Notes under the pieces: generated by a model
The model's database searches: none
Told to the model about the DNA's origin: nothing
The model's input: only the letters and a program-made list of their open reading frames with translations
Source of the DNA: Marinobacter sp. F4216
GTDB taxonomy: Bacteria; Pseudomonadota; Gammaproteobacteria; Pseudomonadales; Oleiphilaceae
DNA: 64,000 nucleotides
Direction of reading: 5' to 3'
Assembly: GCF_019931195.1 (NCBI RefSeq)
Contig: NZ_JAIOUO010000007.1
Location: forward strand, 124,001 to 188,000
Program-made: the position numbers and the translations under genes
Part shown: positions 21,078-33,831 of the stretch, piece by piece
Layout of the letters: the number at the start of each line of letters is the position of its first letter
Numbering within the stretch: the stretch's first letter is position 1

Positions 21078-22265
21078 TTATGCCCAGGCGCGTCGGAGGA
21101 CCGCTTTGGCATCGTCCAGGGTGACTTCTTTCGGATTGAACATAATGGAGCCGTCATCCAGTGCCATTTCGGCAATCTGGTCCAGCTGGGCCTCATCAAC
21201 TTTGCCAGTCTCTTTGAGTGTGCGTGGCAGTTTGCAATGGCGGTAAAGCTGGTCGCGCAACTTGCGAATCGCTGAGATGCTGGCTTCTGCACGGCGGCTG
21301 GCCGGGGTGTTGGCGTAGACTTCCGGGCCTTCCAGGTACAGCAACAACTCGCCCAGTGGCTCGCGAATATCTTCCAGATTGAACTCCAACACGTAAGGCA
21401 GGTACAGGCTCATGCACAGGCCGTGGGGCAGGTGGCAGATCGCGCCCGTGGCGTGGCCAAGGGCGTGCACCAGGCCAACCATGGAGTTGGAGAACGCAAT
21501 ACCAGCCATGGTCGATGCCTGAGCCAGTTCAAGGCGGCCCTCGGCGTCTTTCGGATTGTCCATTACCTGCAGCAGGGACTGGCTGATCTTCTTGATCGCA
21601 GCGGTCGCGTAGGCGTCACTTAGCGGGTTCTTGGCCATGCAGGTGAACGCCTCGGTGGCGTGGGTCATGGCGTCCATGGCGGTTGCAGCGGTAATGTGCG
21701 CTGGCAGCGTCAAGGTCATGCGCGGATCGATGATCGCGGCGTTGGGCAGCAGGAACGAGGAAGAGAAGGGCAGCTTCACGCCCTTGGATTCGTCCGTGAT
21801 GACTGCCACAGCGGTGACTTCCGAGCCGGTTCCAGCGGTGGTGGGCACCACAAAGAAGGGCTTGAGCGGATGCTTCAGAACGCCTGCACCAGTGTATTTG
21901 GAGAGGTCGTTTCCACCTTCGGAGACCAGAATATTGACGGCCTTGCCGGTATCAATGGCGGAACCACCCCCGACGGCAATGATGGAATCGCACTTTTCCT
22001 GACGGTAAACGCCGGCGATATCGCGGACCACAGACGTGGATGAATCGGGTGGAACGTCATCGTAAATGCTGACGATCTCCAGACCGCTCTCTTCACAGGC
22101 TGCAATCACCGGGTCCAGCAGGCCTGCCGCACGAACACCTTTATCGGTGACAATCATCGGGCGCTTGGCCGCCAGGCCGGTCAGTTCGTAAGGGATGTGC
22201 TCAAGGGCGGACTTTCCGGCAATGACTTTGACCGGGCAGAAGAATTCGTAATATTTGTTGGTCAT
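21078..22265 (-). CDS. Iron-containing alcohol dehydrogenase (group III)
   Basis: 395 residues of the Fe-ADH superfamily, which interconverts alcohols and aldehydes with NAD(P). The NAD-binding GGGSAIDTGKA (about 97-107), PTTAGTGSEVT (about 140-150), DAMTHATEAF and the metal histidines in HALGHATGAICHLPHG are all present. Substrate chain length cannot be read; in a hydrocarbon-using bacterium, long-chain alcohols are possible. It is the second gene of a two-gene operon: its ATG overlaps the stop of the SCP2-like gene by 4 bases. Confidence 0.93.
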   Translation of the reverse strand: MTNKYYEFFCPVKVIAGKSALEHIPYELTGLAAKRPMIVTDKGVRAAGLLDPVIAACEESGLEIVSIYDDVPPDSSTSVVRDIAGVYRQEKCDSIIAVGGGSAIDTGKAVNILVSEGGNDLSKYTGAGVLKHPLKPFFVVPTTAGTGSEVTAVAVITDESKGVKLPFSSSFLLPNAAIIDPRMTLTLPAHITAATAMDAMTHATEAFTCMAKNPLSDAYATAAIKKISQSLLQVMDNPKDAEGRLELAQASTMAGIAFSNSMVGLVHALGHATGAICHLPHGLCMSLYLPYVLEFNLEDIREPLGELLLYLEGPEVYANTPASRRAEASISAIRKLRDQLYRHCKLPRTLKETGKVDEAQLDQIAEMALDDGSIMFNPKEVTLDDAKAVLRRAWA

Positions 22266-25204: not shown

Positions 25205-25675
25205 ATGAACGATGATACTCGCAGAGACCGGGTAACCCGGTTTATTGAAACACTGAATCAGGCCCGTGAACTGGGGCTGAGTGTGGAAGACGCAAAGGAA
25301 GGGGAGCTGGTGCTTTGCCTTCCTTATAGTGACCGTATCATCGGCAACCCGGAAACCGGCGTCATCCACGGTGGTGCTATTACTACCCTGATGGATACCG
25401 CCTCCGGCTCCGTCATCATTTGTGCGCTGGACGAATTTGAGCTTTGCCCAACTCTGGATCTTCGGGTGGATTACATGCGCCCGGCTGAACCGCGAAAGCC
25501 GGTCTATGCCCGGGCTGAAACCTACAAAGTGACCCGCAACATCATCTTCACCCGTTGTCAGGCCTATCAGGAAGGTGGTGAAACGATTGCCAACTGCGTC
25601 GGTACCTTTATGCGCATCGGTAAGGAAGCCACTCCCAAGGGTTACCGGGACCTGATTACCGGAGGTGAAGTATGA
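25205..25675 (+). CDS. PaaI-type hotdog thioesterase (first of a pair)
   Basis: 156 residues with the hotdog hallmark NPETGVIHGGAITTLMDTASG at about 49-69, where HGG starts the central helix and Asp is the likely catalytic base. Such enzymes hydrolyse acyl-CoA thioesters. Its stop overlaps the next start by 4 bases (ATGA), so the two hotdog proteins are probably made together and may form a hetero-oligomer. Confidence 0.88.
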   Translation: MNDDTRRDRVTRFIETLNQARELGLSVEDAKEGELVLCLPYSDRIIGNPETGVIHGGAITTLMDTASGSVIICALDEFELCPTLDLRVDYMRPAEPRKPVYARAETYKVTRNIIFTRCQAYQEGGETIANCVGTFMRIGKEATPKGYRDLITGGEV

Positions 25676-26106
25676 CCGACGCGGAACTTCTGCAGTACAC
25701 CCGGGATACTGGCGATTTCTCACGCATGCTGAGCAGCATTCCCTACGCCCGGTTCATCGGCCTGGAATGTGATCGCTTCGGGGATGACCTGATTTTCCGT
25801 CTGCCCAGGAAGCAGCAGAACCTGGGCAACCCCATCTTGCCGGCCATTCATGGTGGTGTGATTGGTGGCTTCATGGAATTGTCGGCAGCCTTTTATCTGA
25901 TGATGTCCCAGGAAACGCCCCGGATGCCCCGAATCGTGGATTTTTCTCTGGATTACCTGCGCGCCGGGCTGGACCGTGAAACCTACGCCGAATGTAGACT
26001 GACCCGCCAGGGCAATCGGGTCGCCAACGTGATGATTACCGCCTGGCAGAAATCCCGTTCCCAACCGATAGCCACCGCCCGGGCTCATTTCCTCATTGAA
26101 GGTTGA
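25672..26106 (+). CDS. PaaI-type hotdog thioesterase (second of a pair)
   Basis: 144 residues with NPILPAIHGGVIGGFMELS at about 44-62. Here Glu replaces the Asp of the partner at the catalytic-base position of the helix, and the two proteins are only distantly alike. Both acids occur in active hotdog thioesterases. It ends 226 bases before htpG. Confidence 0.86.
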   Translation: MTDAELLQYTRDTGDFSRMLSSIPYARFIGLECDRFGDDLIFRLPRKQQNLGNPILPAIHGGVIGGFMELSAAFYLMMSQETPRMPRIVDFSLDYLRAGLDRETYAECRLTRQGNRVANVMITAWQKSRSQPIATARAHFLIEG

Positions 26107-31746: not shown

Positions 31747-33831
31747 ATGAAAACGGTTGTCAGCGTCAGCCAGGGATCATCGGAGTTCGACTATCAGCTT
31801 GAAACGGAATTTTTGGGCCAGCCTTTCCGGGTGATTCGTCTGGGGTCGGACGGCGACCTGGAACGCGCGGAATCCATTCTGGACTCAGTGCGTGAACAGG
31901 CTGACGCGATAGGGCTGAGCATGATTCACGACCATTACCAGGTCGGTAAAGAGCAGATCCTTCATCCGGACACAGCGCGCCTGGAAGACTGCATACCGGA
32001 CAAGCCGGTTACCACCGGTGCTGGCCTACGTGGGATTCTACAGGAGTGGGCGGTTCGCCACACCCAGTCAGAACTGGGCCATTTCTTTGATAACGCGCGG
32101 ATTCTGTGTTTTAACGGCCAGGCCAGTTACCGCATTGCCCGCGCGCTGGCGGAACATACGGACAATCTGTTTTTCGCCGATCCCTACACCGATTTCGGTG
32201 TTCCGTACCTGCTGACGTCCCTCAGCCATCTGGAAACCTATACCCGCATTACTTCGCCGTTTATGTATCGGCCGGCGGCCGCCCGTGCGGTGGAAATTGC
32301 GCTTCATAACCCGCTTTATCGCCTTGCAGAAGGCATGGTGAAGACGTCGCTCAGTGAGGCAGTGGAGTCTGCCCATGTCATTGTCGCGTCCATCGCTGAC
32401 CTCGAGGGCATGGGGCAGAAGCAGCTGGATGGCAAGACGATCATTACTTCCCGCGTAACCGATTCTGCCCTTGATTGGCTGAAGGCCCGCAATGTGGCCA
32501 TGGTGGTGGACTACAGTCCCTGGCTGGAAGGGCGGCCAGTAGGAACCAACGTGATGGAGGCCTTGATCAGCGCCTCGCTGGCACGCACCCCCGAGCAGCT
32601 GGGGGCCGATGATTATCTGAGTGTCATCCAGAAACTCGGCATCGAGCCACGAATCATCTACCCGAATGAGTACCGCCGGGTGAACCGGTTTGCCTTCGTT
32701 ATTCATCCCCTGTCCCAGCAGTACCTGACCAAGACCCCACCGCTGGACTGGATTGCCGAAGTTTCGCCAAAAGGGGTGATGAACCTGGTTGAAAAGGCGA
32801 TCGCCTACACGCCGCCTTTTATCTATTCCAAGGTAACGGGTATTGCCTCTCCCACGGGGGACGAAGTGGAGGGCTGGCTGATTACCGTGGGTGGAACGCC
32901 AAAAGAAATCATGGCCCACGATCCGGAGTTTACCTACAAACGTCTGTTGCAGGCGGCCAGGCTGGCTAGAAAGCTTGGGGCTCAGGTCATGGGTCTCGGC
33001 GCCTTCACCAAGGTGGTGGGGGATGCTGGCATCACCGTGGCCAAACGCGCTCCGCTGCCAATCACTACGGGTAACAGTTACAGCGCCTCCGGTGCCTTGT
33101 GGGCAGCTCACGAGGCCGTGAAGAAAATCGGCCGTGTGAGTGTTGGCAAGAACGGAAAAATGGCGGGCAAGGCCATGGTGGTCGGAGCCACCGGTGCCAT
33201 CGGCTCCGTATGTGCGCGCCTGCTGGCCAAGGCTGCGGACGAGATCTATCTGGCGGCGCCCGAGCCCGCCAAGCTGCTGGCGCTGAAAGAAAGCATCGAG
33301 TCTGAAACGCCCGGCGCCATCGTCCATATTGCCGGCTCAGCCAATCGGCACCTGGCTGACATGGATATGATCGTGACTGCCACGTCCGGAGCGGGTAAGC
33401 GGATTCTGGATATCATGAAGGTCAAGCCCGGTTGCGTAATCACTGACGTAGCTCGCCCGCTGGATATCCCCGCTGAAGACGTGGCCAAACGCCCGGATGT
33501 TCTGGTGATTGAATCCGGTGAAATTCAGCTGCCGGGCCATGTCAGAATGAAAGACATCGGCCTGCCAGAGGGTATTGCCTATGCCTGCCTGGCGGAAACC
33601 ATCGTGCTGGCCCTGGAAGGGCGGTTCGAGAACTTCACTCTGGGCCGAAACATCGAATGGGAGAAGGTGCGGGAAATCTACAAGATGGGCCTGAAGCACG
33701 GCATGAAGCTGGCAGCCATCTCCGGCGTGAATGGCGTGTTCAGTGCAGAAGATTTCGATCGGGTACGTACGCTGGCAGCGGAAAAGGATAAGCCAGCCAA
33801 GGCGCCGTTGCGGAAGAAAGCGAAGGTGTAG
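31747..33831 (+). CDS. Acyl-ACP reductase (AAR)-like dehydrogenase with novel N-terminal domain
   Basis: 694 residues. From about 315 on, the protein aligns by eye with cyanobacterial long-chain acyl-ACP reductase: GLGAFTKVVGD (about 416), TTGNSYSA (440), the NADPH loop VVGATGAIGS (478) and YACLAETIVLALEG (612) followed by NFTLGRN. Cys 614 sits where AAR has its catalytic Cys 294. AAR turns fatty acyl-ACP or acyl-CoA into fatty aldehyde. Residues 1-310 have no counterpart in AAR (341 residues) and I do not recognise them; they contain a Rossmann-like half (IADLEGM, TIITSRVTDSALDWL). Function as a fatty-aldehyde-forming enzyme is an inference. The C-terminal end is Lys-rich. No operon partner is evident. 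Confidence 0.8.
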   Translation: MKTVVSVSQGSSEFDYQLETEFLGQPFRVIRLGSDGDLERAESILDSVREQADAIGLSMIHDHYQVGKEQILHPDTARLEDCIPDKPVTTGAGLRGILQEWAVRHTQSELGHFFDNARILCFNGQASYRIARALAEHTDNLFFADPYTDFGVPYLLTSLSHLETYTRITSPFMYRPAAARAVEIALHNPLYRLAEGMVKTSLSEAVESAHVIVASIADLEGMGQKQLDGKTIITSRVTDSALDWLKARNVAMVVDYSPWLEGRPVGTNVMEALISASLARTPEQLGADDYLSVIQKLGIEPRIIYPNEYRRVNRFAFVIHPLSQQYLTKTPPLDWIAEVSPKGVMNLVEKAIAYTPPFIYSKVTGIASPTGDEVEGWLITVGGTPKEIMAHDPEFTYKRLLQAARLARKLGAQVMGLGAFTKVVGDAGITVAKRAPLPITTGNSYSASGALWAAHEAVKKIGRVSVGKNGKMAGKAMVVGATGAIGSVCARLLAKAADEIYLAAPEPAKLLALKESIESETPGAIVHIAGSANRHLADMDMIVTATSGAGKRILDIMKVKPGCVITDVARPLDIPAEDVAKRPDVLVIESGEIQLPGHVRMKDIGLPEGIAYACLAETIVLALEGRFENFTLGRNIEWEKVREIYKMGLKHGMKLAAISGVNGVFSAEDFDRVRTLAAEKDKPAKAPLRKKAKV

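Follow-up and report, generated by a model that had tools for sequence, protein, structure and literature searches.

In the cyanobacterial acyl-ACP reductase (AAR), cysteine 294 is acylated and reduction is carried out by NADPH, the dinucleotide loop being 162-GATGDIG-168, while Tyr247 has been associated with the compact state and the acyl tunnel (PMC7089970). An AAR-like thioester reductase domain is also present in PigE, of prodigiosin biosynthesis, where it is fused to a transaminase (PMC8341465). As for bacterial wax ester synthesis, the only reductases named for it in a 2025 study were FarA, AcrB, Acr1 and FcrA, and of the bacteria with WS/DGAT 1% had FarA, 31% AcrB and 26% FcrA (PMC11948995), shares which leave many wax-ester-competent genomes with no assigned reductase. 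When both farA and acrB were deleted, M. atlanticus CP1 and M. aquaeolei VT8 made hardly any wax ester under nitrogen limitation, though a small quantity persisted (PMC6308636). Here we compare with these systems a gene of Marinobacter sp. F4216, contained in a window of 64,000 nucleotides (the whole stretch of DNA analysed), which probably represents an overlooked step in wax ester making, since its distant relatives sit among wax-storage genes.

A conserved gene with an AAR-like C-terminal domain

The open reading frame 31747-33831 (+ strand) starts with ATG and encodes a protein of 694 aa, which we describe as an AAR-like acyl thioester reductase built of two repeats. The reading frame is a genuine gene encoding a conserved protein, as indicated by its full-length relatives and by codon differences located mostly at third positions (95, 50 and 372 differences at codon positions 1, 2 and 3, respectively, in the comparison with Marinobacter locus L002), the excess that constraint on the protein would produce. 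The gene is present in a single copy in its own genome (3.66 Mb, 99.9% complete). Its closest relatives belong to Marinobacter, where full-length proteins of 76-85% identity were present throughout the sample (85% for Marinobacter sp. F4218), and full-length relatives of 53-62% identity were found in other Gammaproteobacteria, in Rubrivivax, in many Desulfobacterales and in an Acidobacteria MAG.

Profile, sequence and predicted-structure matches delimited a C-terminal catalytic AAR-like domain at residues 314-672 (32686..33762, +). The NCBIfam PigE model (NF053554) matched residues 314-682 with an E-value of 5.8e-50, but its score of 170.5 bits was well below the threshold of 850 and the match covered just positions 1-362 of the 837 in the profile. 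Likewise, the AAR model TIGR04058 matched residues 354-654 (5e-19) with 68.8 bits, well below the curated equivalog cut-off of 449.7. Using phmmer, residues 355-659 were aligned to AAR (PDB 6jzq, 2.1e-13), and a match of 5.4e-25 was obtained within the first 335 residues of PDB 4ppm, an entry named Aminotransferase. In the structural comparison that the original prediction had proposed as a check, the AlphaFold2 model used for this domain (mean pLDDT 83.4) superimposed on AAR over the range 314-672 with a Z of 31.3 and an rmsd of 3.4 (326 aligned residues, 24% identity), and on the carmabin TAD domain with a Z of about 30, whereas the subsequent families reached only a Z of 14. The match of the C-terminal domain to AAR is therefore far beyond chance.

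The motifs of the domain are in agreement with this match. They include the conserved ITTGN (residues 439-443; 33061..33075, +), the dinucleotide loop GATGAIG (480-486; 33184..33204, +), which aligns with the 162-168 loop of AAR, and the catalytic cysteine, Cys614 (codon 33586..33588, +), which lies within YACLAET and is paired in the phmmer alignment with the cysteine of the AAR sequence ACFAE (C294). Cys614 was invariant in 24 out of 24 aligned relatives and was kept in every such motif found in the Marinobacter loci, and the loop was invariant at nearly all its positions. The original prediction had aligned the C-terminal part with AAR by eye, placing an NADPH loop near residues 478-487 and equating Cys614 with Cys 294; as both equivalents match AAR and are conserved, that alignment was right.

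Thus, the protein combines the AAR fold, the catalytic cysteine and the nucleotide loop that define AAR-like/PigE-type Cys thioester reductases in the broad sense. Nevertheless, the position of AAR Tyr247 was occupied, in an alignment read by eye, by Arg570, which was invariant among the 24 aligned relatives, and no ADO (PF11266) was detected in the genome of the strain, although the Synechococcus elongatus control was. Both observations identify an AAR-like enzyme rather than an AAR, and the second one leaves the hydrocarbon route, which had also been suggested for this gene, with no support in its own genome. PF07993 (NAD_binding_4/SDR) did not match the protein, which sets it apart from FarA/AcrB-type reductases, and the genome additionally encodes a 661-aa AcrB-like protein and 518- and 561-aa FarA-like proteins. 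The assignment of the protein outside the Marinobacter fatty acyl reductase family was borne out.

The N-terminal half

Residues 1-310 (31747..32676, +) had been regarded as unlike AAR. This stood at the level of sequence, where the proposed search with the N-terminal domain alone gave nothing beyond chance-level matches in Pfam, NCBIfam and PDB sequences, but not at the level of predicted fold, which points to a degenerate AAR-fold repeat. The domain was modelled alone from 29 sequences (pLDDT 89.9), and its best match by Z was again AAR (Z 15.0, rmsd 4.3, 254 aligned residues, 12% identity), with the carmabin TAD at about 14. The next families, malic enzyme at 10.9 and glutamate dehydrogenase at 10.5, stood 4 units below AAR; what they have in common with it is the general two-domain Rossmann architecture. 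When Foldseek matches were ranked by E-value, malic enzyme and sugar-binding proteins came on top and TAD only fifth, and the fold assignment consequently rests on the Z-ranked comparison.

The predicted structures of both halves present the same order of secondary-structure elements throughout, with E2-8, E16-22, E25-33 and H38-48 of the N-terminal domain paired with E312-319, E358-367, E373-380 and H393-410 of the C-terminal one, respectively, and H92-110, H267-278, H287-297 and E302-304 with H443-461, H613-624, H638-650 and E654-660. A helical stretch equivalent to residues 324-353 is absent from the predicted N-terminal domain. In profile comparisons of the two halves, the untrimmed profiles matched just in their shared linker, while hhalign of trimmed profiles paired 40-147 with 402-506 in the same register as the structures, a weak match (E 0.05, probability 1%) that is suggestive only. 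It pairs VTTG (88-91; 32008..32019, +) with the ITTG of the C-terminal domain; a second conserved motif, FADP (143-146; 32173..32184, +), marks the end of a Rossmann-like strand.

The N-terminal domain lacks both the catalytic cysteine and a GxGxxG sequence. According to secondary-structure order and motif register, the helix of Cys614, CLAETIVLALEGR, would correspond to NVMEALISASLAR (268-280; 32548..32586, +), with Asn268 replacing the cysteine, and the position of Asn268 was occupied by varied residues in the aligned relatives, but never by cysteine. The domain has, however, invariant residues of its own (Gly91, Arg104, Asn116, Gly124, Thr138, Asn140, Phe143-Ala144-Asp145, Asp255 and Asp289), indicating that it is conserved for some purpose. 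From the models, residues 1-310 most likely represent a decayed copy of the AAR fold and not a foreign domain, which gives the whole protein the look of an old tandem duplication with one half degenerated. The domain may resemble a Firmicutes protein annotated as quinate 5-dehydrogenase, a resemblance that is given no weight here. No N-terminal domain standing on its own turned up in full-length searches covering 185 gammaproteobacterial and 296 Desulfobacterota genomes, nor in plasmids. The reverse arrangement, proteins with an AAR/PigE-like C-terminal domain and no N-terminal repeat, was seen in other Desulfobacterota (L092, L093, L094 and L095), two of them (L094 and L095) with beta-ketoacyl synthase-like genes nearby, as judged by eye.

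Gene neighbourhoods, WS/DGAT co-occurrence and a Cys-less paralogue

In Marinobacter, including M. nauticus DSM 50418 (L028), the gene stands alone and adjoins no wax gene, no biosynthetic cluster was found around it, and the neighbour conserved with it, in divergent orientation, encodes a class I fructose-bisphosphate aldolase (40 of the 49 loci scanned, 47 of which were from Marinobacter). Ten WS/DGAT matches, some as adjacent pairs, were found in the genome of F4216, on contig C6 and other contigs. An iron-type alcohol dehydrogenase (Fe-ADH) gene of the window (21078-22265, -), located 9.5 kb away, was weighed as a possible partner of the reductase, but it had only 37% identity to the Fe-ADH neighbouring the reductase in L051, its best NCBIfam match, ErcA, was below cut-off and just one further Marinobacter locus had a homologue close to the reductase gene, so that no such partnership is claimed. 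Elsewhere in the window, two consecutive overlapping genes of the 4HBT thioesterase family were seen at 25205-26106 (+), with an Hsp90 gene downstream. Given that almost no wax ester is left once farA and acrB are lost, the two-repeat enzyme is not the main route in the strains cited above; it is a candidate for the source of the residual wax ester, or for a function under other conditions.

Outside Marinobacter, where the distant loci make up a similarity-ranked sample, WS/DGAT genes lay within about 8 kb of the reductase gene in 13 of 27 loci (one of the matches being weak), Fe-ADH genes were also present in 13, and one or both in 18, several of the contigs being short. Desulfobacterales loci, including L061, L064, L066, L067, L070, L075 and L077, showed an operon-like order of WS/DGAT, ferredoxin, reductase, second reductase copy and alpha/beta hydrolase, with phasin and PHA regulator genes close by and often patatin and Fe-ADH genes as well. 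Pfam confirmed the WS/DGAT, Fe-ADH, ferredoxin, phasin, PHA regulator and patatin members of the cluster. In NaphS2 (L079), the reductase gene and the WS open reading frame are directly contiguous. As for other lineages, an adjacent and divergent Fe-ADH gene was found in L059, L060, L069 and L080, and Fe-ADH was located about 2.4 kb downstream on the opposite strand in L051 and just upstream and codirectional in L078. In two loci from Halieaceae, L055 and L056, the reductase gene is followed by one for an SDR whose match to PRK07201, the profile that serves for AcrB in PMC11948995, is confined to the first half (443 bits, profile positions 1-354 of 657); this stand-alone SDR gene begins about 40 bases after the reductase gene in L055 (L055:10229-11320).

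Two further observations concern the Desulfobacterales cluster and its Fe-ADH. Immediately upstream of the reductase gene there is a small gene for a single-cluster ferredoxin (L061:7692-7934, with equivalents in 13 other Desulfobacterales loci), possibly a low-potential electron source. In L070, the Fe-ADH (L070:364-2205) carries a C-terminal SCP2 sterol-carrier domain (PF02036), which may bind lipid.

WS/DGAT was found in all 12 genomes of the distant loci, a count that ignores kinship, compared with a background, equally uncorrected, of 12 in 296 Desulfobacterota and 12 in 185 Gammaproteobacteria (4-6%). The two genomes of the gammaproteobacterial set that carry the full-length gene (F4216 and G171) have WS/DGAT. 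Among the genomes examined, G234 alone had a full-length homologue and no WS/DGAT match, and that homologue has an alanine at the position of the catalytic cysteine.

This cysteine is also missing from a tandem second copy present in 10 Desulfobacterales loci, where the first copy has YACLAET and the second YAGLAET (L061:10156-12240, L064:5674-7758, L067:10155-12239, L070:10109-12160 and six more). In a tree of 44 sequences, all the Cys-less copies, that of G234 included, formed one branch with a support of 100/100. A single loss of the cysteine together with retention beside an active copy suggests that the Cys-less protein is a non-catalytic subunit.

Proposed function and relation to known systems

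From the genomic context we infer that the protein is, with good probability, a reductase that converts long-chain acyl thioesters to aldehydes with NAD(P)H, carries a degenerate N-terminal repeat and feeds wax ester synthesis. Its substrate would be long-chain acyl-CoA and/or acyl-ACP. Cys614 would take the acyl group off the thioester, as in AAR, and NAD(P)H bound at GATGAIG would reduce the acyl-enzyme, releasing a fatty aldehyde. The N-terminal half, having lost its cysteine, would probably serve in assembly, acyl-carrier binding or aldehyde handover. The aldehyde could then be converted to fatty alcohol by the Fe-ADH in many of the relatives, and probably by FarA or AcrB in Marinobacter, and WS/DGAT would use the alcohol to form wax ester. 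The original prediction, of a Cys-dependent AAR-like reductase outside cyanobacteria that plausibly feeds wax esters, is thus supported.

A more ambitious version of this proposal, which we hold to be possible but rather unlikely, is that the fusion of a degenerate AAR repeat to an active one, along with hetero-oligomers of active and Cys-less tandem copies in Desulfobacterales, possibly fed with low-potential electrons by the adjacent ferredoxin, would constitute a distinct class of wax ester reductases, providing a wax ester route in strict anaerobes and explaining the residual wax ester of the Marinobacter farA acrB mutants.

It is improbable that the enzyme works in the reverse direction, as an acylating fatty aldehyde dehydrogenase converting aldehydes from the breakdown of wax esters or alkanes to acyl-CoA, with Fe-ADH oxidising the fatty alcohol. 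Hydrocarbons and lipids are used by Marinobacter and many Desulfobacterales, the Fe-ADH neighbours are compatible with either direction and the patatin and alpha/beta hydrolase of the cluster could mobilise lipid. Nevertheless, the synthetic WS/DGAT and granule proteins are encoded in the same cluster, and the closest characterised relatives, AAR and PigE, are reductases (PMC7089970, PMC8341465).

Quite improbable as well is an aldehyde destined not for wax esters but for alkyl-ether or plasmalogen-type lipids in Desulfobacterales, or for signalling. Alkyl glycerol ethers are made by mesophilic sulfate reducers such as Desulfatibacillum (PMC5552659, PMC11150832), and a 2023 survey reported no wax ester in Deltaproteobacteria (PMC10351704); however, the WS/DGAT, phasin and PHA-regulator genes nearby indicate a storage lipid, and wax esters are made by Marinobacter (PMC6308636). 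Finally, reduction of a non-fatty-acyl thioester, as by PigE in prodigiosin biosynthesis, with an incidental link to wax genes, would fit the higher score of the C-terminal domain against the PigE model than against the AAR model, but is very improbable given that the WS/DGAT and Fe-ADH context recurs across phyla and that the Marinobacter gene has no biosynthetic cluster around it.

The two-repeat family is a concrete candidate to fill part of the wax ester reductase gap, and with it the question of what forms the wax ester left in Marinobacter strains without farA and acrB (PMC6308636) becomes testable. It also predicts that Desulfobacterales make wax esters or fatty alcohols, none of which was reported in PMC10351704. 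A duplicated fold with a silent half is, besides, a good system for the study of pseudo-enzyme domains.

We found no description of the two-repeat family in the open, non-subscription literature searched. Ramo of Nevskia ramosa was discarded as a characterised relative, being an Acr1 homologue and putative short-chain dehydrogenase (PMC5806253). FarA, AcrB, Acr1 and FcrA share the proposed step, in which WS/DGAT is provided with fatty aldehyde or alcohol (PMC11948995), but none is AAR-like: FarA and AcrB are SDR/NAD_binding_4 proteins, Acr1 belongs to the SDR family and FcrA is HMG-CoA-reductase-like (PMC11948995). GluTR has in common the Cys-thioester and NADPH reduction chemistry (PMC8341465) and a weak sequence match, but its structure (4n7r) gave a Z of only 14.3 over 141 residues of the C-terminal domain. 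The carmabin TAD (PDB 9e4s, 9e4u, 9e50 and 9e56) has a fold like both halves of the protein, with 18-19% identity to the C-terminal domain, and is part of a carmabin biosynthesis protein.

The two closest systems are AAR and PigE. AAR (TIGR04058; PDB 6jzq, 6jzy) shares the fold of residues 314-672, the catalytic cysteine, the GATGxIG loop and a TTGN-type motif, but the identity on structural alignment is 24% and the protein described here has an additional 310-residue N-terminal repeat. The N-terminal thioester reductase domain of PigE (NF053554; PDB chain 4ppm) is the best sequence match of the C-terminal domain, and PigE is likewise a non-cyanobacterial fusion protein with a conserved cysteine, Cys296 (PMC8341465). 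Hence the idea of a fused, non-cyanobacterial AAR-like enzyme, which had been put forward as new, is not new in itself. The arrangement differs, however: in PigE a transaminase follows the reductase, whereas in the two-repeat protein a degenerate repeat precedes it and there is no transaminase.
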